DNA from: Anaerococcus sp. Marseille-P3915
Lineage (GTDB): Bacteria > Bacillota > Clostridia > Tissierellales > Peptoniphilaceae
Assembly: GCF_900258475.1 (NCBI RefSeq)
Contig: NZ_LT984888.1
Location: 208,639-272,638 of the forward strand
DNA length: 64,000 bases
Direction: 5' to 3'
Made by a program: the position numbers and the translations under genes
Notes under the pieces: model-generated
The model's input: the letters and a program-made list of their open reading frames with translations, nothing else
What the model was told of the DNA's origin: nothing
Databases searched by the model: none
Shown here: positions 1,486 to 41,311 of the stretch, piece by piece
How the letters are laid out: every line of letters begins with the position of its first letter
Numbering within the stretch: the stretch's first letter is position 1

Positions 1486-2875
1486 TTATAAACTCCACTA
1501 TATTTTCGTCAGTATTTTTTATAAATTCATAATCGTGGCTTATGATTATTATAGTTTTTCCGGCAATTTTCATTTGCTTTATTATGTCTATAAGTCTTTG
1601 CATATTTTCGTAGCAAAGACCAGATGTTGGTTCGTCTAGGATGGCTATTTCTTTGGGACTTGCCATAGCAAGACCTAGGGCGAGCCTTTGTTTTTCTCCG
1701 CCAGATAGCCTTTGGGGATGGCGGTCTTTTTTGTCGGCTAAGTTTAAAGCTAATAGGCTTTTTTCTATTAGACTCTTATCATCGCTTACAATTGCCATCT
1801 CCATTTCAACTGATTCTGTAAAAAGCTGATAGTTTACATCTTGCATGACAAGGGAAATATAGGCTCCATGATTTTTTATAAGCTTATTTTTATAATAGAT
1901 TTTTCCATTTTGTTTTTTATTTAGACCGCATAGGTTTCTAATAAATGAGCTTTTGCCTATACCATTAGCCCCAATTATAAAATATATACCAGGCTCAAAA
2001 GAAATGGAAAAATCAAAAATTTGGGGAGAGTCTTTGTAGGCACAAGAAAAATCCTTGCATAATAGACCTTGCGTATTATCACAATTTTTGTCAAAGAGAT
2101 TTTTTATTTGGTACTTATCAGACTTTAGGTCTTCTTTTCTTATTTCATCAAGAGTCCTTAATTTGTGTTCTTTTATGACTTTAGGAGTCAGTTGTTTTTT
2201 TGTGTATGTGATGGACTTTTTATTTTCTATTACTATTAGCTTATCCAAAATGTTTTTAAGATAAAATAGCCTATGTTCAGCTATGATTATAATTTTGCCC
2301 ATGCTTTTTAGGACCTCTAAGCATGAGGAAAGGTTTTTTATCGACTCTTTATCAAGGGATGCTGAAGGCTCATCAAAGATATAGACCTCATTATCCATAA
2401 CAGCTACAGAAGTTATTGCAATTAGCTGTTTCTGACCACCTGATAGGGTGAATAAATCTTTATCAAGTAGGCTATCACTTGAAAGAAGCTTGCTATAGTA
2501 AGAAATCTTCTTATATATATTATCCCTAGGCTCATTTCTATTTTCCAGAGCAAAGGCTATTTCATCAAGAGAATTAACAGCATAAAACTGGTTTTTAGGA
2601 TTTTGAAAAACTGTTGCTATGAAATTTGATCTACTACTTATATCCTTGTCCAAAAGTGACTTGCCATTTAAGAGTAAGTCTCCAGCAATTTTTGCCTTAT
2701 CAATTTCTGGTATTATTCCATTTATGCTTTTAATTAATGATGATTTGCCAGCACCTGATTTTCCGGTGATGACATTTATTGTTCCTTTTTCAAATTTAAT
2801 ATTTATTTGTTCGAGTATCTTATTTTCCTTGCCATTTTCACTAAAGCTTAGGGAAAAATTTTTAAATTCTAGCAT
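1472..2875 (-). CDS. ECF transporter ATPase with two fused ABC domains
   Basis: 467-residue cytoplasmic ATPase with two complete nucleotide-binding domains in one chain, standing in for the EcfA/EcfA' pair. Domain 1 has Walker A GKSGAGKS at 38-45, signature LSGGQKQ and Walker B YIFDEPSASLD. Domain 2 has Walker A GANGIGKS near 302-309, signature LSGGEKQR and AILDEPTSGL. It powers the membrane pair encoded just upstream (T component, overlap 7 bp; S component before that). ATG at 2875 follows AAGGAT. Substrate is not shown by the sequence. Confidence 0.93.
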   Translation of the reverse strand: MLEFKNFSLSFSENGKENKILEQINIKFEKGTINVITGKSGAGKSSLIKSINGIIPEIDKAKIAGDLLLNGKSLLDKDISSRSNFIATVFQNPKNQFYAVNSLDEIAFALENRNEPRDNIYKKISYYSKLLSSDSLLDKDLFTLSGGQKQLIAITSVAVMDNEVYIFDEPSASLDKESIKNLSSCLEVLKSMGKIIIIAEHRLFYLKNILDKLIVIENKKSITYTKKQLTPKVIKEHKLRTLDEIRKEDLKSDKYQIKNLFDKNCDNTQGLLCKDFSCAYKDSPQIFDFSISFEPGIYFIIGANGIGKSSFIRNLCGLNKKQNGKIYYKNKLIKNHGAYISLVMQDVNYQLFTESVEMEMAIVSDDKSLIEKSLLALNLADKKDRHPQRLSGGEKQRLALGLAMASPKEIAILDEPTSGLCYENMQRLIDIIKQMKIAGKTIIIISHDYEFIKNTDENIVEFINERY

Positions 2876-3564
2876 AATTTTATCCTTATAAATAAGCTTA
2901 TTATAAATATTCCAAAGGCAAGAAGTATATAGTCTATGCTTCTTAGCTGAGCCCTTGAAATTGATGATCTCTCGCCATCTACTTTCATTCCCCTGGTCAT
3001 GGCTGATATAGCGACATTGTCGGCAGTTTGGGATGTAATCATAAGCAGCGGAACAAACTTGTATTCGATAAACCTTGATGGGTTTTTGAAAAAACTTTTT
3101 AGGGTTAAATCGTGCATATACATGGCTTCTCCTATGATTTTGTAATCTTGCTTGATGGAGTAGAAAAACCTAAACATGACAGAAATGGGGATTATGATTG
3201 TATTTGGAAATTTTATCTTTTGAAGGGAGTAAACAAGGTCACTCATCTTTGTGGTGGTCATAGTATAATAACCCATAATAACTCCTGGTAGTATCTTAAT
3301 TACTATGCCGGCATAGAGATTTAAAATCATTGCCCAAAAGCTATTTGGGAATTTTTCCATGATATTTTGCCCAAGAAAGGCCAAGCCAGTATAAAAAATA
3401 CCCTTGGAGACAAGGGATATTTTTCTATCATATAGGGCAAAAAGATAGGGAAGGAGCGCTAGGAAGATACCCAGATAGTAGTATCTCCTAGCTAGTGAGC
3501 CTTCCATAGTGCTTATACCTATTATTAAGGTCAAAAAGAACTTGGTCCTAAAATCAATTTTCAT
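2869..3564 (-). CDS. ECF transporter T component (EcfT-like)
   Basis: 231-residue integral membrane protein of the CbiQ/EcfT type that couples ATP hydrolysis to movement of the substrate-binding S protein. Several hydrophobic segments lie between residues 10-110, then a cytoplasmic loop, and a final membrane segment (IDYILLAFGIFIISLFI). The coupling-helix region holds the expected SAMTRGMKVDGER-like A-R-G motif near residue 190. Starts in a TAATG overlap with the S component, which implies translational coupling. Confidence 0.88.
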   Translation of the reverse strand: MKIDFRTKFFLTLIIGISTMEGSLARRYYYLGIFLALLPYLFALYDRKISLVSKGIFYTGLAFLGQNIMEKFPNSFWAMILNLYAGIVIKILPGVIMGYYTMTTTKMSDLVYSLQKIKFPNTIIIPISVMFRFFYSIKQDYKIIGEAMYMHDLTLKSFFKNPSRFIEYKFVPLLMITSQTADNVAISAMTRGMKVDGERSSISRAQLRSIDYILLAFGIFIISLFIRIKLC

Positions 3565-4145
3565 TAAGCCATACCTGCTTTTTTGAAATGTTTATTTAAT
3601 ACCTTTATTCCTATGGTGCAACCCAGATAGCCACCAATCATTCCTAAGATTACAACAGGTAGGAAGGACCATGTAGGCATTACTGAGAGTAATTTTTCTA
3701 CATAAGCTTCTCCATATCCTTGGTCTATTAGGGATTTAGCATAAGAATCTCTAGCTAGATACATAGGAATTAGATTTGCGGCTGCAAACATCATAAAGAC
3801 TGTATAGGTAACTCTTGCGGTTTTGATTGACTTATAGGAGCCAGTTTTTAAGATAAATTCACAGATTATTGATAAGATAATTATGGCTGGTAGGACAATT
3901 GCACCATGGCCAGACATAGAAAATACAAGGCCAAAAATTATACCCATAATCAAAACCATGCCAAACTTATTTATCTTTGTAGAATAAAGCATAAAGACAG
4001 GACCTGAGACTAAGCCACAAGCAAAAGGGACAAGAGGCATTAAGACTGGCACAAAGCCAATCATACCTCCGCACCAAGTGGCCATTACAGTAAGTAGTGA
4101 AAAGACTCCTGCATTTACTAAATCACGTATTCCAAATTTATTCAT
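3564..4145 (-). CDS. ECF transporter S component, Trep_Strep/MptD-type
   Basis: 193-residue membrane protein with five to six hydrophobic segments. It resembles the Trep_Strep (TIGR02185, MptD-like) group of putative ECF substrate-binding proteins: N-terminal RDLVNAGVFSLLTVMATW, a glycine-rich second segment and a central MSGHGAIVLPA. It should capture the ligand for the T and ATPase subunits encoded next. Excellent AGGAGG site before ATG 4145; 9 bp after the ABC gene. The substrate of this S family is not established to my knowledge; iron-complex or metallophore is inferred only from the Fur box and neighbours. Confidence 0.8.
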   Translation of the reverse strand: MNKFGIRDLVNAGVFSLLTVMATWCGGMIGFVPVLMPLVPFACGLVSGPVFMLYSTKINKFGMVLIMGIIFGLVFSMSGHGAIVLPAIIILSIICEFILKTGSYKSIKTARVTYTVFMMFAAANLIPMYLARDSYAKSLIDQGYGEAYVEKLLSVMPTWSFLPVVILGMIGGYLGCTIGIKVLNKHFKKAGMA

Positions 4146-4154
4146 TATTTCCTC

Positions 4155-5876
4155 CTAGTAGATAAATTCTTCTGATTTTTTGGAAGATTCTATCATTTTT
4201 TTATAAGTTTTGCTGTTTTTAAGAAGCTCATCGTGCTTGCCGAATGCTTCTATTCTGCCATCATTCATAACAATTATCTGATTGACATTTTCTATTGATT
4301 TCATCCTGTGAGATATAATTATTACTGTCTTATTTTTTGTCAATTTGTTAAGGGATTCTTGGATATATTTTTCATTTTCTACATCAAGGCTTGCTGCTAT
4401 TTCATCTAAAAGAATTATTTCTGCGTTTTTTAGAAAGGCTCTGGCTATTGATATTCTTTGCCTTTCTCCTCCAGATAGCTTGCTGCCATTTTCCCCTATT
4501 TCTGTTTGGTAACCATCCTTAAGCTTGTTTACAAATTCATCACAATTTGCAAGCTTAGCGGCTTTTAATACTTCTTCATCACTAGCATCAGCTTTTCCTA
4601 TTCTAATATTATCCATGACAGAACCATTAAAGAGAATTACATCTTGAAATACCATGGAAATATGCTTGAATAAATCAGCTGTATCTGTAGTTTTTATATC
4701 CTTATCACCAATAGAAATTATTCCTTTATCATAGTCGTAGAGTCTAGCTATCAGCTTTATTAGGGTAGATTTACCACAACCAGATGGGCCAACTAGGGCG
4801 CTTGTCTTATCTTGAAGGGCATTAAAGGAAATCTTATCTATTACCTTTTTATCATCAAGGTAGGAAAATTCCACATCTTTTCCTTCAATATCAAATGATT
4901 TTATATCAGCCCTATTTCCTTTTTTGATTTTTTCATTCCTAAGGGCCTTAATTTTCTCTATAGGGCTATCCATATACATTAATTCCCCGTAGGCTTGGTT
5001 AAAGGCTGCCACTCCGTCAATAAGTCTTGCTCCTGCAAACAAGTAGCCTGCAAAGTATAAAATATTAATTTCTCCTGCCATAAGCTGTCCAAGTCCGACA
5101 AATATTACAAGGGCTATGGATAAGTTTGCAATAATAGTAGCTGATACTATCGGTATAATTTGTCCTAGTTCAGTCTTTATATGCTTTTTTTCAAGGTCTT
5201 TTACAAAGGTTGTTGCCTGTTTTTCCTTTTCATCTGATAGCTTGTAGGATTTGATTTCTGTAGACAAATCAATTAATTCTTGAAAAATTTTTGAGGACTT
5301 TCTTTGCTCTTGGTAATAGGTCCCGGTCGCCTTTATTTGCATTTTCCTTGAAAATAAATTTAAAATAATTGAAAAGCCAATAGGAATAATAACAGCAAGG
5401 CCTAGTTTGAAATTGCCAAGTAAAAGTAATATGGAAATAAGAGCGAAATTGATCAAAAATCCATAAAAACTAGGTAGAGAATGACTAAGGCCATGCTCAA
5501 TTGTATCTACATCCTTCATAATGGTTTGAGAAAGATCGGTTATATCTCTTCTTGAGTAGAAGGAAAGGGGTAATTCCTTGATGATTTCTATAAGCTCTAT
5601 CCTTAGATTTGCTGATTCCTTGTAGGTTTCGTTGTAGGTTGTGATATAGTCCTTATTAATTATAAAAAGCATCACTAGGCCTATTATGAAAAATGCTAGA
5701 ATTGAAATTGCTAGCTTCATATCACCAAGACCAAGCAAGCCCTGGAGGACATACATCAAAAGCATAATAGGTAGCATGTAGGAAAGGCTTTTGAGTGTTG
5801 AATATTTAATTGCAACTAGAGCTCCTTCTGCACCCTTATCTGTTAGAGCGAAGCGGTTTTTAAGATATTTTTTCAT
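4155..5876 (-). CDS. ABC half-transporter (membrane plus ATPase), IrtB/YbtQ-like
   Basis: 573-residue type IV exporter-fold half-transporter: six membrane segments in residues about 20-310, then an ATPase domain with Walker A GPSGCGKST near 362, signature LSGGERQR and IILLDEIAASLD. It pairs with the preceding gene as a heterodimer. An in-frame ATG at 5891 exists, but it contains the GGAGGG ribosome site of the ATG at 5876, which forms a TAATG overlap with the upstream stop; I therefore start at 5876. Similar pairs (YbtPQ, IrtAB) import ferric siderophores despite an exporter fold; direction here is inference. Confidence 0.88.
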   Translation of the reverse strand: MKKYLKNRFALTDKGAEGALVAIKYSTLKSLSYMLPIMLLMYVLQGLLGLGDMKLAISILAFFIIGLVMLFIINKDYITTYNETYKESANLRIELIEIIKELPLSFYSRRDITDLSQTIMKDVDTIEHGLSHSLPSFYGFLINFALISILLLLGNFKLGLAVIIPIGFSIILNLFSRKMQIKATGTYYQEQRKSSKIFQELIDLSTEIKSYKLSDEKEKQATTFVKDLEKKHIKTELGQIIPIVSATIIANLSIALVIFVGLGQLMAGEINILYFAGYLFAGARLIDGVAAFNQAYGELMYMDSPIEKIKALRNEKIKKGNRADIKSFDIEGKDVEFSYLDDKKVIDKISFNALQDKTSALVGPSGCGKSTLIKLIARLYDYDKGIISIGDKDIKTTDTADLFKHISMVFQDVILFNGSVMDNIRIGKADASDEEVLKAAKLANCDEFVNKLKDGYQTEIGENGSKLSGGERQRISIARAFLKNAEIILLDEIAASLDVENEKYIQESLNKLTKNKTVIIISHRMKSIENVNQIIVMNDGRIEAFGKHDELLKNSKTYKKMIESSKKSEEFIY

Positions 5877-33421: not shown

Positions 33422-33826
33422 ATGAAAATACTTGTAATAGATGCCCAGGGCGGAGGTCTTGGCAAAGAGCTTATAACAAAATTAAGGGCCCGCCACAAAG
33501 ACCTTGATATAACTTGTGTTGGGACAAATTCTCTAGCCACAAGCGCCATGCTAAAGGCTGGGGCAAATAGGGGAGCTACTGGAGAAAACCCAGTAGTGGT
33601 AAATGCCGCCAAGGCTGATATAATCCTAGGACCGATCGGGATTATGCTTACCAATTCCCTATATGGAGAAATCACAGAAAAAATAAGTCAGGCTGTATCC
33701 TTATCGCCTGCTATCAAAATCCTAATTCCCTTTAGGCATGATGACAATATAATAGTCGGAATTTCTGACTATTCGATCAAAAAACTTGTCGACCTTGCCA
33801 TGATAGAAGTTGAAAAGAATTTATAA
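33422..33826 (+). CDS. DUF3842 family protein
   Basis: 134-residue small Rossmann-like cytoplasmic protein (MKILVIDAQGGGLGKELI at the start, GANRGATGENPVVVNA and DIILGPIGIMLTNSLYGEIT in the middle). Function unknown. It stands directly upstream of a Nik/Opp-type ABC importer, separated only by the structured leader at 33825-33966; a link to metal transport is inference. ATG has an AGGGGGAA site. Confidence 0.85.
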   Translation: MKILVIDAQGGGLGKELITKLRARHKDLDITCVGTNSLATSAMLKAGANRGATGENPVVVNAAKADIILGPIGIMLTNSLYGEITEKISQAVSLSPAIKILIPFRHDDNIIVGISDYSIKKLVDLAMIEVEKNL

Positions 33827-33966
33827 AATGCAGGAAGCATTTTAGGTCGCAGAAGTGGCCGGGATAAGAATATCCAAACTCCCTCGCTAAAGAGGGGCAA
33901 ATATTTAAGCAATTATACTAAGAAGGTATAGGAAACTCAGACGGGCTACCTATGCCTATTTTTATT
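33825..33966 (+). promoter_or_regulatory. riboswitch-like transcription attenuator of the ABC importer operon
   Basis: About 140 bases folding into a row of stems: AAAATGC/GCATTTT (33825-33843), GGTC/GGCC, GGATA-AGAA-TATCC, CCCTC-GCTAAA-GAGGG. Two mutually exclusive stems follow: TATAC/GTATA (33914-33930), and GGTATAGG/CCTATGCC (33925-33956) with TATTTTTATT after it. The last is terminator-like and 16 bases before the importer ATG. No known riboswitch consensus recognised. Confidence 0.5.
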
Positions 33967-33981
33967 GTAAAAGGAGAAGAA

Positions 33982-35628
33982 ATGAAGAAAATACTAGGAA
34001 AAGTCGTAGGTCTTTTGGCCCTAACCCTTGCACTCACAGCTTGTGGGGCTTCTAAAGATGAAAGTAAGACTGAGACAAAGACAGAAACAAAGACACAAGT
34101 AGAAACAAGCCATCCAAAGGATGAACTAATACTTGGCATCGGCTCTGAGCCAGAAAAGGGCTTTGACCCAATCCATGAGGCAAGCCATTCATCAAGCTTA
34201 CTTTTCCACTCATCCCTACTTAAGAGAGATTTGGACCTAAATATAGTAAATGATTTGGCAGAAGATTATAAAATCTCAGATGATAAGCTTACATACACAG
34301 TCACCCTCAAGGACGGTCTTAAATTTTCTGACGGTACAGATTTAACAGCTGATGATGTTGTCTTTTCCTACAACAAGGCCAAGGAAGAAAATACTGCTGG
34401 CATCAACCTCACCCGTTTCGTAAAGGCTGAAAAAGTCGATGATAAGACCCTTAAGCTTGTCCTAGAAAAACCAGACATTTCCTTTACAACCACTATGGCA
34501 TCTCTTGGAATTGTAAGCAAGGACAAATACAAGGACGGCTATGGGCAAAATCCTGTAGGCTCTGGTCCCTTTAAGCTTGTCGAATGGAAAAAGGGCCAAG
34601 AGATGATAGTAGCGCCAAATGAATATTATTATGGGGATAAGGTTCCATTTAAAAAGTTGACTTTCATTTTCTTTAAGGATGATGACACAGCCCTTGCCAC
34701 AGCCAAGGAGGGCCTTTGCGATATTATTAGAATCCCTTATACAGCCAAAGATATGAAAGTAGAAGGCTTCCACCAGCTTTCAGTCAAAACCGTAGACAAT
34801 AGGGGAATCTCCCTTCCGGTTGTGCCAGATACAGGCGAAGTTACAGATGATAAGACCCTAGCACCAGGCGCACCAATTGGAAATGACGTTACAAGCGATA
34901 TAGCCATAAGAAAGGCTCTAAACATAGCCATGGATAGGCAAAAGATAATTGATCATGTCCTAAATGGCGAGGCTACCAAGGCTACATCCATAGCAGATGG
35001 TCTTCCTTGGTATAATGAGGAGACTGCTGATATAAAAGATGGAGATACAGAAGCTGCCAAGCAAATCCTAGACGAGGCAGGTTGGAAAGAGGGCACTGAC
35101 GGTATCAGGGAAAAGGACGGTATAAAGGCCAAATTTGACCTCTACTATGCCTACCAAGATAGGGAAAATCTCGCAGTTTATTTTGCTGAGAAGGCCAAAG
35201 AAATTGGCATCGATGTAAATCCGATCTATGGAGACTGGGACTTTTTTGCAGATAAGATGTATAGCCAGGCAGTCCTCTTTGGTTGGGGCGGCTACGACCC
35301 ACTAGATATGTATTATTCTTATGCTTCAAAATTTAGGGGCTATGACTATTACAATACCAATTTCTATGCCAACGAAAGGGTTGATAAATATTTTGAAGAT
35401 GGGCTTTCAGCAGATAACTTGGAAGACTTTTATGATAATTTCAAAAAGGCCCAATGGGATGGAGAGAATGGATTTTCTTGGAAGGGCGATTGTCCTTGGG
35501 TATGGCTGGTAAATGAAAACCACTTATATCTTGTAAGAGATGGCCTAGAGCTTGGCAAGACAAAGATTGAGCCACACTCATCCCGCTATACCCTTATAGA
35601 TTCTATAGCTAATTGGAAATGGGAATAA
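33982..35628 (+). CDS. Nik/Opp-type ABC importer, substrate-binding lipoprotein
   Basis: 548-residue SBP_bac_5 family solute receptor. Lipoprotein signal with lipobox LTAC (Cys21), a Lys/Thr/Glu linker, then the binding domain: LLKRDLDLNIVNDLAEDY, FSDGTDLTADDVVFSYN and NPVGSGPFKLVEWKKGQ. The early LLKRDLDLN pattern resembles clostridial nickel-type receptors, but oligopeptide is possible. The open frame begins at 33952; AAAGGAGAAG places the start at 33982. First gene of a five-gene importer operon behind the attenuator. Confidence 0.93.
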   Translation: MKKILGKVVGLLALTLALTACGASKDESKTETKTETKTQVETSHPKDELILGIGSEPEKGFDPIHEASHSSSLLFHSSLLKRDLDLNIVNDLAEDYKISDDKLTYTVTLKDGLKFSDGTDLTADDVVFSYNKAKEENTAGINLTRFVKAEKVDDKTLKLVLEKPDISFTTTMASLGIVSKDKYKDGYGQNPVGSGPFKLVEWKKGQEMIVAPNEYYYGDKVPFKKLTFIFFKDDDTALATAKEGLCDIIRIPYTAKDMKVEGFHQLSVKTVDNRGISLPVVPDTGEVTDDKTLAPGAPIGNDVTSDIAIRKALNIAMDRQKIIDHVLNGEATKATSIADGLPWYNEETADIKDGDTEAAKQILDEAGWKEGTDGIREKDGIKAKFDLYYAYQDRENLAVYFAEKAKEIGIDVNPIYGDWDFFADKMYSQAVLFGWGGYDPLDMYYSYASKFRGYDYYNTNFYANERVDKYFEDGLSADNLEDFYDNFKKAQWDGENGFSWKGDCPWVWLVNENHLYLVRDGLELGKTKIEPHSSRYTLIDSIANWKWE

Positions 35629-35629
35629 G

Positions 35630-36604
35630 ATGGGGAAGAAAATTTTAAGGGAGATTGTCACCTTTATTCTTTTCATTCTGGCAGTATCTTTTATAAGTTT
35701 TTTGCTCTTAGACCTATCACCAATTGACCCTATAGCATCCTTTGCAAGGGCTAAGGGAAGTGGGCTTGACCAAAGCCAAAAGGCAGCCTTAATTGCCAAG
35801 TGGGGTCTTGATAAGCCCCTTTTTGAAAGATACCTAAGCTGGCTTGCCAATCTTGTTAGGGGCGACTTGGGGATTTCAAATATTTATAATAGAGAGGTCA
35901 TTGCCATAATAAAAGAGGGCTTTGCCAATTCTTTTGTGCTGATGGCCCTAGCTTGGATTTTGCAAGGGGTCTTGGGTATTTTCTTGGGCCTTGTGGCAGG
36001 GGCAAATATTGGAAGTCTAAAGGATAAATTTATCAAGGCCTATGCCATAATTTTTGCATCGACCCCTAGCTTTTGGCTGGGCCTGGTCTTGATTATGGTT
36101 TTTTCCCTTAAGCTTAAGCTTTTTCCAGCCTCTATGGGATCTCCTGCAGGAGTTTTGACAGAAGATATCAGCTTTGCTGATAGGCTCTACCATATGGTCC
36201 TTCCTTGCCTTTGCCTAAGCCTGGTGGGATCTTCAAATATCATCCTCCACACCAGGGCTAAGACTGAAGATATCCTAAATGAAGACTTTATCACCTATGC
36301 CAAGGCTCGTGGGATGAAAAAAAGAGAAATTATTAGCAAGTACGCCCTTAAAAATTTGATTTTACCAGGTCTTAGTTTGCTCTTTACGTATTTTTCGGAG
36401 CTTTTTTCTGGGACAATATTAGTCGAAAATGTCTTTTCCTATCCAGGTCTTGGGTCCCTGACTGTAGAAGCTGGCCTTAGGTCTGATGCACCGCTGCTTT
36501 TGGGCCTTGTCCTTTTTTCGTCGATTTTTGTCTATCTGGGTAATAGGCTTTGGGATTTAATCTTGCCAAGGCTAGACGTAAGACTAGGAGGGGCCTATGA
36601 GTAG
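35630..36604 (+). CDS. Nik/Opp-type ABC importer permease 1
   Basis: 324-residue NikB/DppB-like inner membrane permease with about six membrane segments. It has the binding-protein-dependent loop with AKARGMKKREIISKYALKN near 225-243, which contacts the ATPases. Begins one base after the receptor stop and overlaps permease 2 by 8 bp. Confidence 0.94.
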   Translation: MGKKILREIVTFILFILAVSFISFLLLDLSPIDPIASFARAKGSGLDQSQKAALIAKWGLDKPLFERYLSWLANLVRGDLGISNIYNREVIAIIKEGFANSFVLMALAWILQGVLGIFLGLVAGANIGSLKDKFIKAYAIIFASTPSFWLGLVLIMVFSLKLKLFPASMGSPAGVLTEDISFADRLYHMVLPCLCLSLVGSSNIILHTRAKTEDILNEDFITYAKARGMKKREIISKYALKNLILPGLSLLFTYFSELFSGTILVENVFSYPGLGSLTVEAGLRSDAPLLLGLVLFSSIFVYLGNRLWDLILPRLDVRLGGAYE

Positions 36605-37442
36605 GAAATTAATCGGAAAATCTCCAATGAGCCTTAGAAAAAAGACCTTGATAGAGATTGGCCTTGCCATATTTTTTGTGGCCTTTATCTTTATCAGAGG
36701 GGCAATGATTAATGAAGGAGACCTATCAATTGATTTTGCAAATAAATTACAAGGGCCGAGCCTTTCCCACATTTTTGGGACAGACCAAACTGGCAGGGAC
36801 ATGTATTTAAGGACAATCAAGGGCCTTGCTACTTCCATACAGATTGGCTTTTTGGGTTCTCTTTCAGCTCTTCTTGTGGCAAGTGTCTTTGCTCTTTTCT
36901 TAAGCTTTGGCAATAAGTATCTGGATAAGGTCATTAACTTTATAATTGACCTAAGCCTTTCCATTCCCCACATGATGGTCCTAATCCTTGTGGCAATAGC
37001 AGCTGGCAGGGGCCTTAGGGGCGTGATTTTAGGAATTGGTCTTACTCACTGGACAGGCCTTACCAGGCTTTTGAGGGGAGAAATCCTTGCTCTTAAGGAT
37101 GAAAATTATATAAAGATATCAAGGGCAATGGGTAAGTCGAGGCTTTATATTTTTAAAAACCACATTCTGCCAAAGATTTTCCCGCAGATGCTTGTAGGAC
37201 TTATTTTGCTCTTTCCCCACGCCATCCTTCATGAGTCAGCCATTTCCTTTCTGGGCTTTGGCCTTTCCCTATCAAGCCCATCCATAGGAATAATCTTATC
37301 AGAATCGATGAAATACCTCATAGGTGGATCATGGCATCTGGCCTTTTTCCCAGGGCTTTTGCTTTGCTTTTTGGTTTTTGCCATAAATAGGCTGGGTGAA
37401 GATGTCAAACATTTGCTAGATCCTTACTCATATCACAGGTGA
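36597..37442 (+). CDS. Nik/Opp-type ABC importer permease 2
   Basis: 281-residue NikC/DppC-like permease. Typical N-terminal HIFGTDQTGRDMYLR, the coupling loop ISRAMGKSRLYIFKNHILPK, and the near-terminal ISFLGFGLSLSSPSIG. Ribosome site AGGAGGGG inside the upstream gene. Confidence 0.94.
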   Translation: MSRKLIGKSPMSLRKKTLIEIGLAIFFVAFIFIRGAMINEGDLSIDFANKLQGPSLSHIFGTDQTGRDMYLRTIKGLATSIQIGFLGSLSALLVASVFALFLSFGNKYLDKVINFIIDLSLSIPHMMVLILVAIAAGRGLRGVILGIGLTHWTGLTRLLRGEILALKDENYIKISRAMGKSRLYIFKNHILPKIFPQMLVGLILLFPHAILHESAISFLGFGLSLSSPSIGIILSESMKYLIGGSWHLAFFPGLLLCFLVFAINRLGEDVKHLLDPYSYHR

Positions 37443-37446
37443 TTTT

Positions 37447-38238
37447 ATGAATATATTAGAAGTTAAAAATTTAAAGGTGTCATTTTACCAATACACCAGG
37501 GGCCTTAGGCGAAGAAGGCTTGATATAATAAAAAATCTGAGCCTAGATGTAAGGGAAGGAGAGATTATGGCAATTTTTGGGGCATCAGGCTCTGGGAAAA
37601 GCCTCTTAGCTTCCGCCATCCTCGGACTTTTGCCCTACAATGGCTTTAGTGAGGGAGAAATCTTTTATAAGGGGCAAATCTTAGACCAAGATCTTTTGGA
37701 AAAAGTCAGGGGCAGGGAAATATTTTTCATTCCCCAGTCAATCACATCCCTTAACCCACTTTTAAAAACCAAGGACCAGGCAAGGATGACCCTAGCAAGG
37801 GATGATTATCATAAACAAAGACAGGTCTACCAGTCCTTTGGCCTGGGGAGTGATGTTGATGATATGTATCCAAGAGAGCTTTCTGGTGGCATGGCTAGGA
37901 GGGTTCTTGTAAGTGATGCGATCTTAAGCGGGGCAGATTTTATAATTGCAGATGAGCCGACCCCTGGCATGGATAAGGAGGCTACTGATGAGATTGTCAG
38001 CTATTTTAAAAAGATGAAGGAAGCTGGCAAGACCATCCTTCTTATAAGCCACGACATAAATATGGCTTTGTCATGTGCCGATAGGATTGGGATTTTTTAT
38101 GATGGAGAGATTATAGAAGTTGGGGATAGGTCCGCCTTTGCTAATAAGGGGGCAGGTCTAGCCAATCCCTATTCTAAAAGGCTCATAAGGGCCCTGCCTG
38201 AAAATGGCATGGACTTAGATAGGATAGAAAATGATTGA
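37447..38238 (+). CDS. Nik/Opp-type ABC importer ATPase 1
   Basis: 263-residue NikD/DppD-like ATPase: Walker A GASGSGKS near 49, Q-loop in FFIPQSITSLNPL, signature LSGGMARR and Walker B FIIADEPTPGMD. Four bases after permease 2, overlapping ATPase 2 by 8 bp. The signature differs slightly (GGMARR rather than GGMRQR). Confidence 0.93.
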   Translation: MNILEVKNLKVSFYQYTRGLRRRRLDIIKNLSLDVREGEIMAIFGASGSGKSLLASAILGLLPYNGFSEGEIFYKGQILDQDLLEKVRGREIFFIPQSITSLNPLLKTKDQARMTLARDDYHKQRQVYQSFGLGSDVDDMYPRELSGGMARRVLVSDAILSGADFIIADEPTPGMDKEATDEIVSYFKKMKEAGKTILLISHDINMALSCADRIGIFYDGEIIEVGDRSAFANKGAGLANPYSKRLIRALPENGMDLDRIEND

Positions 38239-38857
38239 AGTAAAGAATTTGTCCTTTTCCTATGATGGGAAGAGGGATATTATAAAAAACTGTAGCCTCA
38301 CGCTAGAGAGGGGTGAGGTCTTGGGCCTTGTGGCCCCATCAGGTTATGGCAAGTCGACTCTTGGTAAACTTATGGCAGGCTACATAAAAGCCCCAAGGGG
38401 GACTGTTCTTGTGGATGGCAAGGACATCAGAGACCTTAAGGGCTTTCTGCCAGTCCAGATGGTCCACCAAAATCCAGAGAAAAATGTAAATGTCACTTGG
38501 AAGGTGGGAAAGATTTTAAATGAAGGCTGGCAAGTGACTGGCGAAATAAAAGAGGCCTTTGGCATCAGGGAACAGTTTCTAGACAAGTTTCCCGTAGAGC
38601 TATCAGGCGGCGAACTCCAAAGGATTTGCCTGTCAAGAGTCATGGGAGATTCTTGTAAGTACCTAATAGCAGATGAAGTCACAAGTATGCTAGATACTAT
38701 AAACCAGGCTGAAATTTGCAGGATTTTGCTAGACTTTGCTAAAAATAAAAAGGTTGGAATCCTCTTCATTTCCCATAATAAGGCCCTTCTAGACCTAATT
38801 GCCGACAGGATAATCGACCTTAGAGATATAAATAAGGAAAGCTACGACAGAAAATAA
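38231..38857 (+). CDS. Nik/Opp-type ABC importer ATPase 2
   Basis: 208-residue NikE-like ATPase, short for Opp/Dpp proteins but usual for NikE. Walker A APSGYGKST (first residue Ala instead of Gly), Q-loop MVHQNPEKNVN, signature LSGGELQR, Walker B YLIADEVTSMLD. The C-terminal oligopeptide-type extension is missing, which supports the Nik-like subgroup. Last gene of the importer operon. Confidence 0.92.
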   Translation: MIEVKNLSFSYDGKRDIIKNCSLTLERGEVLGLVAPSGYGKSTLGKLMAGYIKAPRGTVLVDGKDIRDLKGFLPVQMVHQNPEKNVNVTWKVGKILNEGWQVTGEIKEAFGIREQFLDKFPVELSGGELQRICLSRVMGDSCKYLIADEVTSMLDTINQAEICRILLDFAKNKKVGILFISHNKALLDLIADRIIDLRDINKESYDRK

Positions 38858-38970: not shown

Positions 38971-39963
38971 ATGGCAAAAAATTTCAGAGGCAAATCATTT
39001 CTAAAACTTCTTGATTTCTCATCAGCAGATATCAGATACCTTTTAGACCTAGCAAAAAACTTCAAAGACATGAAAAGAGCTGGAGTTCCTCACAGATATC
39101 TTGAGGGCAAAAATATAGCAATCATCTTTGAAAAAACATCTACAAGGACCAGATGTTCTTTCGAAGTAGGGGCTTATGACCTAGGCATGGGAGTAACCTA
39201 CCTTGATCCAACAGGTTCACAAATGGGCCACAAGGAATCTGTTGCCGATACAGCCAGAGTCCTAGGCAGAATCTATGACGGTATAGAATTTAGGGGCTTT
39301 AAGCAAGAACACGTCGAAGAGCTTGCAAAATACTCAGGAGTCCCAGTATGGAACGGTCTTACTGACCAGTGGCACCCAACCCAAATGCTAGCCGATGTCC
39401 TAACAATCGAAGAGCATTTTGGTTATTCTAAGGGCCTTAAGTTCGTATATTTCGGCGATGCTAGAAATAATATGGCAAATTCCCTAATGGTAGTTTGTGC
39501 AAAACTAGGTATAAATTTTGTAGCCTGCGCTCCAAAAGAGCTCTTCCCAGAAGAATGGCTAGTTGAAGAATGCAAGAAAATTGCGAAAGAAAACTTCTCA
39601 ACAGTTACCCTTACAGAAGATGTCAAAGAAGCAGCTACAAATGCTGATGTAATATACACAGATGTCTGGGTATCAATGGGTGAGCCAGCTGAAGAATGGG
39701 AAAAGAGAATCAAAATCCTTAAACCTTACCAAGTCACTAAAGAGATCATGGCCATGGCAAACAAAGAAGCCATCTTCCTCCACTGCCTACCAGCCTTCCA
39801 CGACAAGGAAACCAAGGTCGGCAAGGAAATCTTTGAAAAATATGGTCTTGACTCAATCGAAGTTACAGATGAAGTCTTTGAATCAAAACAATCCCTAGTC
39901 TTTGACGAAGCAGAAAACAGGATGCACACCATAAAAGCAGTAATGTATGCAACACTTTGCTAG
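38971..39963 (+). CDS. argF: ornithine carbamoyltransferase
   Basis: 330 residues. Carbamoyl-phosphate site KTSTRTR with a Cys following (near 55-62), HPTQMLAD, and the ornithine-site HCLPA at 271-275. Interconverts ornithine plus carbamoyl phosphate and citrulline. No arcA or arcC is seen beside it, so a catabolic (arcB) or biosynthetic role cannot be decided, but the downstream ornithine-type genes favour amino-acid breakdown. A TAAAAT-like -10 lies near 38925. ATG has an AAAGGAG site; followed by a strong terminator. Confidence 0.96.
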
Positions 39964-40150: not shown

Positions 40151-41311
40151 ATGGACAAGCTTGATGTAAATAAAAATATAAAAAAAGATATAAGCGCCGA
40201 GGTCTTTATATTTTTGGGCCTCTTTCTGGGACTTTTTATCTATATGGCAAATATAATGGGTGGGACAAACATGGTCAAGACCATGATGCTCACCTCCTTT
40301 GACCTCTTGATGAATGTATGCTTCTACCTGATGGCGGTGGCAGTACTTGCAGGGGGCCTATCAGCAATTTTTTCAGAATTTGGGGTAATTGCCCTGGTAA
40401 ATAAAATCCTTTCTAAGCTCATGGGTCCTATTTATGACCTACCAGGAGCAAGCTCTCTAGGAGTTTTATCCTGCTTTATGTCTGATAACCCAGCCATCCT
40501 CACCTTGGCTAGGGATGATAATTTTAGGATGTATTTTAAAAAATACCAGATGCCAGCCCTAACCAACCTAGGCACAGCCTTTGGCATGGGCCTTATCACA
40601 GTCACATCTATGATGGCACTGCCTGTTGAGGCCTCCCTAAAGGCGGCCATGGTAGGCCTACTGGGGGCAGTTTGCGGATCAGTTGTATCGGTAAGGCTTA
40701 TGATTAGAAAGACCAAAAAATATTACGGGACAGAAGAGATGGTAGAAACCAAGTCGGTCAAAGCCATCCCTGCTGGCTTTAGGCAGGTAAGAGAGGGCTC
40801 TGTCGGCTCTAGATTTATCACAGCCCTCCTTGATGGGGGCAGGGTCGGAGTAGACATGGGAGTGGCTATAATTCCTGGAGTTTGCCTAATCTGTACCCTA
40901 GTAATTATGCTAACAAATGGGGCAGGAGCAAATGGCTATACAGGCGAGGCCAACCAAGGCATAGCCCTCTTGCCAGTAATCGGTGAGAAATTATCCTTTA
41001 TAATAAATCCAATTTTTGGCTTTAAAAGCCCAGAAGCCATAGCCGTTCCAATCACAGCCCTAGGCTCAGCCGGTGCTGCCATAGGTCTTGTAGCAGATAT
41101 GGCAGGCAGGGGAATAATTTCAGGCAATGACATAGCAGTTTTCACATCTATATGCATGTGCTGGTCAGGCTATCTATCAACCCACATAGCCATGATGGAT
41201 GCTCTAGATACCAAGGAAATGACAGGCAATGCCATAATTTGTCACACCATAGGCGGTCTATGTGCAGGATTTTTTGCCCATTTGCTTTGGACTTTGCTTG
41301 CCTTCTTGTAA
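40151..41311 (+). CDS. CD0519/CD1768-type membrane transporter
   Basis: 386-residue integral membrane protein with about nine to ten hydrophobic segments and a nucleoside-recognition/Gate-like core (GASSLGVLSCFMSDNPAIL, VGVDMGVAIIPGVCLI). It resembles the CD0519/CD1768 family of clostridial membrane proteins, whose substrate is unknown. First gene of an operon with two LOR/SDH-domain enzymes (37 bp gap), so an amino-acid substrate such as ornithine is a reasonable inference. ATG 40151 has AAGGAAAT. Confidence 0.8.
   Translation: MDKLDVNKNIKKDISAEVFIFLGLFLGLFIYMANIMGGTNMVKTMMLTSFDLLMNVCFYLMAVAVLAGGLSAIFSEFGVIALVNKILSKLMGPIYDLPGASSLGVLSCFMSDNPAILTLARDDNFRMYFKKYQMPALTNLGTAFGMGLITVTSMMALPVEASLKAAMVGLLGAVCGSVVSVRLMIRKTKKYYGTEEMVETKSVKAIPAGFRQVREGSVGSRFITALLDGGRVGVDMGVAIIPGVCLICTLVIMLTNGAGANGYTGEANQGIALLPVIGEKLSFIINPIFGFKSPEAIAVPITALGSAGAAIGLVADMAGRGIISGNDIAVFTSICMCWSGYLSTHIAMMDALDTKEMTGNAIICHTIGGLCAGFFAHLLWTLLAFL

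Follow-up and report, generated by a model that had tools for sequence, protein, structure and literature searches.

The leader RNA at 33825-33966 of the window (the whole 64,000-nucleotide stretch of DNA that was analysed), flanked by a DUF3842 gene on its 5' side and a Nik/Opp-type importer on its 3' side, looks like a genuine structured switch, for which conservation in relatives is stronger evidence against chance than comparison with shuffled sequences. Judged from sequence, it appears to combine a new RNA motif with a candidate new regulator in an attenuator that depends on a protein. We consider it reasonably probable that transcription attenuation here depends on a protein, most likely DUF3842, which would sense the status of the nickel-pincer nucleotide (NPN) cofactor. 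NPN is a modified pyridinium mononucleotide that LarB, LarE and LarC make from NaAD, according to PMC11796402. Our reading builds on a conserved and covarying element, a terminator that is exclusive with part of it, the kind of genes that lie downstream, and co-occurrence with DUF3842.

A broader reading, which we put forward tentatively, is that DUF3842 founds a new class of cofactor-sensing, RNA-binding antiterminators. DUF3842 would measure NPN and act via hairpins with GAA loops. In some Clostridia it would control nickel uptake together with de novo NPN synthesis; in those that lack LarC and keep LarA-type enzymes, it would control an as yet undescribed salvage of NPN (an ECF S-component importing the nucleoside and a kinase re-phosphorylating it). 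If true, a single RNA motif would flag genes for NPN and nickel throughout Clostridia and give DUF3842 a function, new transport and salvage genes would be named, cofactor borrowing from neighbours by LarC-lacking bacteria would become testable, and a second loop-recognising design of antitermination would stand alongside ANTAR. The word DUF3842 was absent from the open-licence literature that was searched, and no RNA-level control of NPN and no NPN salvage was found in the titles and abstracts of that literature.

The leader RNA of the window

The original prediction described five hairpins ending in two exclusive structures, a TATAC/GTATA hairpin and an 8-pair terminator, with a run of T 16 bases before the importer start. 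All of these are present (Table 1), and the last T of TATTTTTATT lies 16 positions upstream of the importer ATG at 33982. At the other end of the leader, H1 overlaps the stop codon of the DUF3842 gene.

Table 1. Hairpins, terminator and flanking genes of the window element (loops in square brackets)
Feature	Position	Strand	Basis or remark
DUF3842 gene (PF12953), candidate trans-acting RNA-binding sensor	33422-33826	+	Pfam E 5.9e-47
H1 hairpin AAAATGC[AGGAA]GCATTTT, pentaloop AGGAA	33825-33843	+	sequence and folding; helix covaries in relatives
H2 hairpin GGTCGC[AGAA]GTGGCC, tetraloop AGAA	33845-33860	+	sequence and folding; covaries in relatives
Additional hairpin GGATA[AGAA]TATCC, tetraloop AGAA	33862-33875	+	not in conserved model; within linker of model alignment
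Hairpin CCCTC[GCTAAA]GAGGG	33881-33896	+	variable linker; not in conserved model
H3 antiterminator hairpin TATACT[AAGAA]GGTATA	33914-33930	+	sequence and folding; conserved, covarying in relatives
Intrinsic terminator GGTATAGG..CCTATGCC, 8 outer pairs	33925-33956	+	5' arm doubles as the 3' arm of H3
T-rich run TATTTTTATT of terminator	33957-33966	+	sequence
SBP_bac_5 lipoprotein-like solute-binding protein, Nik/Opp type; first gene after attenuator	33982-35628	+	
Importer permease, NikB/OppB type	35630-36604	+	
Importer permease, NikC/OppC type	36597-37442	+	
Importer ATPase, NikD/OppD type	37447-38238	+	
Importer ATPase, NikE/OppF type	38231-38857	+	

The 148 nt from 33825 to 33972 fold at -45.2 kcal/mol, against -30.1 +/- 3.9 kcal/mol for shuffled sequences (z -3.87; none of 200 shuffles was as good). 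The computed energies are -12.1 kcal/mol for the terminator alone versus -2.3 for H3 alone, and -45.2 for the leader region when free versus -36.8 when H3 is forced. Since the free fold lies below the H3-forced fold, the terminator is the default state in the folding calculation. The terminator begins at the first base 3' of the antiterminator loop, so terminator and H3 are mutually exclusive.

A Nik/Opp-type importer does lie downstream, as had been predicted, with an SBP_bac_5 protein, two permeases and two ATPases. NCBIfam models of nickel importers all scored below their cut-offs in the window (e.g., NikA 133.8 vs 393 bits; Opp2B 219.4 vs 350), and we call the importer "Nik/Opp-type", with nickel as a plausible substrate as far as its sequence goes. 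After the importer come an ornithine carbamoyltransferase (38971-39963) and a membrane protein of the CD0519/CD1768 family (40151-41311).

Rfam covariance models gave no match at gathering score in the 64-kb window, and on 14 related loci their only two matches, to a T-box and to an sRNA, lie outside the element. This agrees with the earlier failure to match the leader to the cobalamin, NiCo, yybP, M-box, lysine or SAM consensus. The top low-threshold match in the region, a preQ1-II look-alike at 33909-33984, was rejected (16.7 bits against a gathering score of 47; E 2.5).

Conservation of the element in relatives

Importer orthologues are few: a strong intact match was found in 3 of 31 genomes of the genus, window included, and the element was seen by eye in just 2 of 14 regions upstream of importer orthologues. 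A pattern search with two mismatches was discarded (62 of 249 genomes matched, many probably by chance, and a reversed control pattern also matched many). With DUF3842 as the anchor, the same kind of hairpins was found directly 3' of the gene in several relatives, and in some relatives the gene that follows DUF3842 is larE by sequence motif. Other members of the window's genus have a DUF3842 gene with a DGQGG motif, on whose 3' side no such element was seen by eye.

A DUF3842 scan of 84,980 species genomes yielded 80 loci, the best 80 of 544 relatives. Many of these best 80 carry H1 with a pentaloop (AGGAA or ATGAA, for example), H2 with a tetraloop (AGAA, TGAA or CGAA) followed by a variable linker, and H3 with a pentaloop such as ATGAA and a 3' arm that is the start of the terminator. 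When 14 elements were aligned with MAFFT by sequence only (alignment A5), the three helices were paired in 88.8% of cells, versus 28.6-43.6% with partners slid by 1-3 columns. Changes on both sides were seen in 16 of the 20 pairs, and the covariation score of 0.611 was reached in none of 500 shuffles. These compensatory changes bear out the prediction of a transcription-attenuation switch, which a lack of covariation in related genomes was to have refuted. We prefer the A5 test to a loop-anchored test of H3 on 39 rows, where rows L138, L177 and L180 seem to have picked up the wrong terminator and the counts are brought down by bulge variants.

The same changes bear on one alternative, namely an unregulated intrinsic terminator that just lowers read-through from the DUF3842 gene. 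The terminator is indeed strong and favoured as the default fold, but H3, in which the same bases fold differently, has been kept through compensatory changes, and so have H1 and H2, which play no part in the terminator. We therefore regard this explanation as highly improbable.

A covariance model of H1, H2 and H3 only, R1, was built from the 14 elements, and no training record was named Anaerococcus or Peptoniphilus. One locus, L103, was left out of training since MAFFT had misaligned its H1-H2, and R1 later recovered it. With R1 the window element scores 42.5 bits (E 8e-6 in 817 kb), and in the window's own genome this is the sole significant match (E 2.2e-5; next E 4.9). At E<=0.01, R1 matches 39 of the 80 DUF3842 loci, 14 of the 39 being its own training set. 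The element also occurs in records named Erysipelotrichaceae and Acidaminococcus.

Because R1 ends one base after H3, the terminator is an independent test. In 17 of 21 R1 matches (20 genome-wide and the window), a terminator stem sets in directly behind the last base of the H3 loop, where 0.09 such matches are expected with the downstream bases shuffled. Three matches have no such terminator (L218, L220 and L222), and there the H3 5' arm can pair with bases before the T-run (10, 8 and 5 pairs, respectively); in L207, no alternative partner for the H3 5' arm was found before the T-run. Antiterminator and terminator are thus mutually exclusive, and both are conserved.

Loops ending in GAA are found in 69 (H1), 60 (H2) and 67 (H3) of the 74 rows fitted to the model, with ANGAA in 49 rows for H1 and 51 for H3, and NGAA in 60 for H2. 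All 20 pairs show changes on both sides in these 74 matches, a count to be read with the alignment's leaning towards the model. Conservation stays at or below 0.75 in those columns of the flanks and linkers that are filled in half or more of the 74 rows, and linkers vary widely in length and sequence across relatives. No conserved ligand-binding core of a standard kind was found in junctions or internal loops of the 74 model-aligned rows, where the near-invariant unpaired columns are hairpin-loop positions. With conserved GAA loops and unconserved linkers, each hairpin is seemingly read by its loop, so the conservation seems to mark a repeated protein-recognition site more than a folded pocket.

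This pattern weighs on the reading of the element as a true riboswitch, in which the RNA itself would bind NPN, a precursor or Ni2+, the hairpins would pack as an aptamer, and DUF3842 would be an accompanying protein of the pathway or of cofactor handling. The target genes suit a metabolite or metal signal, and in the predicted folds of some relatives H1 and H2 are enclosed by a long stem, giving a three-way junction. That stem is absent from the window fold, however, and the near-invariant unpaired positions lie only in hairpin loops while the linkers vary, so we judge a riboswitch unlikely. The enclosing stem is predicted in the leaders of L079, L082 and L085; a three-way-junction aptamer was rejected as the general form of the element.

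A known system with a similar layout is that of the ANTAR proteins EutV and NasR. By the definition in PMC3369931, their targets are a pair of hairpins whose hexanucleotide loops carry A in position 1 and G in position 4, and protein binding there leads to antitermination. Like those targets, the element consists of small hairpins in tandem, their loop residues conserved and the last one overlapping an intrinsic terminator (in 17 of 21 matches, with 0.09 expected). Unlike them, its loops are mostly ANGAA or NGAA (AGGAA, AGAA and AAGAA in the window), an H1-H2 pair is followed by H3 beyond a linker of variable length, and the linked protein is DUF3842. An ANTAR target RNA was rejected as an identification, since the loops in the 74 rows do not fit the hexanucleotide A1/G4 definition.

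The shared logic of small conserved-loop hairpins in tandem, one overlapping the terminator, would suit binding by some other protein, e.g., an ANTAR-type antiterminator, with DUF3842 unrelated. We consider this quite improbable: most loops have five or four bases with GAA at the end, whereas ANTAR targets have hexaloops that carry A1 and G4. A search for ANTAR-domain proteins was negative in the window genome, as it was in all 14 control genomes.

Co-occurrence with DUF3842

The AF2 model of DUF3842 (pLDDT 92.4, pTM 0.89) predicts an alpha/beta fold of the common Rossmann-like type, which weakly matches those of Rossmann-like proteins and enzymes that bind nucleotides. No clear sequence relative was found among solved structures (best E 0.41), and Pfam and fold matches gave no recognisable RNA-binding domain.

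Co-occurrence was assessed for DUF3842 and LarC in 393 genomes of the class (completeness of at least 90% requested; R1 at E<=1e-3, strict filters that lose some weak matches) and for LarA in 80 genomes. LarC was searched as PF01969 and LarA as PF09861, whereas the LarB and LarE labels rest on motifs. R1 gave 21 matches in 20 of the 393 genomes, spanning 17 genera. DUF3842 is present in 140 of the 393 and in all 20 element genomes (element x DUF3842 table 20/0/120/253; p 4e-10 by Fisher's test, which here and below ignores relatedness). LarC is found in 183 genomes at E<=1e-3 (182 over cut-off), yet in just 11 of the 20 element genomes. Where LarC is present, the element occurs in 11 of 83 genomes with DUF3842 versus 0 of 100 without; where LarC is lacking, these counts are 9 of 57 versus 0 of 153. 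The element tracks DUF3842, not LarC, and does so beyond adjacency; across the 20 genomes, element and DUF3842 lie within 160 bases of each other in 10, within 2 kb in 3 and on different contigs of draft assemblies in 7. The training elements of R1 lie next to DUF3842, a possible source of bias in what the model detects.

That the element was found in none of the 100 LarC-containing genomes without DUF3842 is a further point against the riboswitch, though one to be read with that training set in mind. Taken together, GAA-loop conservation and detection only alongside DUF3842 make an RNA-binding protein a better fit than an aptamer. The leader had originally been called "riboswitch-like": the switch stands, while sensing by the RNA alone has become less likely, given conserved unpaired bases that are GAA loops and an element found only in DUF3842-containing genomes of the 393-genome sample.

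DUF3842 could be a pathway protein that merely accompanies the switch, as co-occurrence does not prove partnership. Among the 140 genomes with DUF3842, 120 have no R1 match at E<=1e-3. At E<=0.1, R1 has a match in 19 of those 120 DUF3842 neighbourhoods, and a wider model, R2, has one in 16 of the 120, 9 of the 16 being among its own training rows. DUF3842 may have further roles, or many elements may have been missed.

Some individual loci depart from the window's arrangement. In Peptoniphilus indolicus (L102, near 5360-5378), and also in L085, the DUF3842 frame ends early relative to relatives, as if shifted near the C-terminus, and the element still follows. Anaerococcus degeneri (L104, 5413-5500) has DUF3842, the element and the terminator, as do L082 and L087, but the gene called next in L104 is on the opposite strand, and the switch there may be an orphan left by a lost importer. 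In five LarC-lacking genomes with DUF3842 (L263, L264, L271, L275 and L298), no element was found; behind DUF3842 come two unnamed frames, the first of 514-537 codons, and then a solute-binding-protein-like gene, a possible further DUF3842 context.

Proposed mechanism, target genes and salvage

We propose that the leader would display separate hairpins with pentaloops or tetraloops ending in GAA. A protein on the GAA loops would hold H3, making its 3' arm unavailable to the terminator, and the importer would be transcribed; with the protein absent, the more stable terminator would form and transcription would end. Because the terminator is favoured by default, a factor should be required to hold H3 for read-through. 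H1 and H2, which have similar loops, may load or multimerise that factor.

The sensor of NPN status would be DUF3842, binding the RNA in its cofactor-free form and releasing it when cofactor-bound. In the window, DUF3842 would be transcribed ahead of the terminator and so escape its own attenuation. The cofactor-free form would turn on nickel import in the window and NPN synthesis (larB/C/E) elsewhere, and in genomes without LarC the switch would turn on an ECF importer, mostly together with a nucleoside kinase, for a proposed cofactor salvage. We propose the apo form as the antiterminator, and the opposite sign is possible.

PyrR, a relative of phosphoribosyltransferases, promotes termination on pyr operon RNA. 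The pyr attenuators resemble the window in that the regulator gene comes first and the attenuator after it, so that the sensor there is unattenuated; PyrR differs in promoting termination, in binding a different RNA and in controlling other genes. RNA control is likewise tied to nickel and cobalt genes in the NiCo (czcD) and other metal or cobalamin riboswitches. NiCo switches control export, however, whereas the element precedes import and cofactor genes and has no Rfam match in the window. In Lactiplantibacillus plantarum, the lar operon has a DNA-binding regulator, LarR; both it and the element would control lar genes, with the element's control lying in the transcript.

Gene clusters around DUF3842 (best 80 of 544 loci) include LarB in 21, LarC in 21, LarE in 19 and a Nik-type binding protein in 14; labels such as LarB/C/E, CbiM and FecCD are our own assignments from sequence motifs. 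Two small unnamed proteins (MACF.. and MTLLTTVFAA..; e.g., 3463-3885 and 3152-3463 on the minus strand of L204) recur at the heads of lar operons. Their clusters cover 11 and 13 of the best 80 of 544 loci, and they have no Pfam or NCBIfam match. Assigned by similarity, the genes downstream of the 21 R1 matches are lar genes in 7, nik-type importers in 3, an ECF S-component in 9 and, in the other 2, the small unnamed gene of lar operons called "MACFIV". An opposite-strand open frame is called between the element and the nik genes in L208, and likewise before larE in L209.

The nine ECF-S targets are exactly the LarC-lacking element genomes (p 6e-6), and a kinase-like gene follows the ECF-S gene in six of them. 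Two of the nine ECF-S proteins were scanned, and both pass PF12822. Two kinases were scanned as well: one passes PF00485 (uridine kinase family), and the other has a sub-threshold deoxynucleoside-kinase match. The fold of the modelled kinase matches uridine-cytidine kinases, and the kinase profile matches phosphoribulokinases, uridine kinases and, weakly, nicotinamide riboside kinase. Among 120 further genomes with DUF3842, an ECF S-component lies near DUF3842 in 26 of 48 without LarC versus 7 of 72 with LarC (p 2e-7).

These targets also help to choose between signals. The same protein-dependent attenuator might respond to nickel itself, with DUF3842 or a partner sensing Ni2+, which would suit the nickel-type importers among the targets (in the window and some others). 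It does not readily explain why all nine LarC-lacking element genomes target an ECF S-component, six with a nucleoside-kinase-like gene next, and we think a nickel signal somewhat unlikely. The level of NPN would be the one signal that fits all targets, while nickel alone explains ECF-S and kinase poorly. A vitamin-type importer, a nucleoside kinase and a LarA-type protein without the last step of NPN synthesis together suggest that the cofactor may be salvaged as a nucleoside.

LarA provides moderate evidence for salvage. Of the 80 genomes in which it was sought, the 20 lacking both DUF3842 and LarC came from the top of a randomly ordered list, and the 25 with DUF3842 but without LarC or element were the first 25 of 48 by handle. 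LarA (PF09861 over cut-off) was found in 8 of 9 LarC-lacking element genomes versus 4 of the 20 lacking both DUF3842 and LarC (p 9e-4), in 15 of the 25, in 4 of 15 with LarC but without DUF3842, and in 6 of 11 LarC-containing element genomes (barely so in one, G547). For strong LarA (at least 100 bits), the corresponding counts are 6 of 9 versus 4 of 20 (p 0.03), 7 of 25, 3 of 15 and 2 of 11. Strong LarA does not differ between LarC-lacking genomes with DUF3842 overall (13 of 34) and those without it (4 of 20; p 0.23), and this failure to separate the two groups slightly lowers the odds of the broader reading with its new class and salvage route. In the window genome, LarC has two matches, and no match to larB/C/E near larA was found in the stretch searched.

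One kinase-like protein, encoded at 2328-3419 on the minus strand of L220, has an N-terminal part of ~180 residues without a Pfam match, which is predicted with good confidence except for its first residues and one loop.
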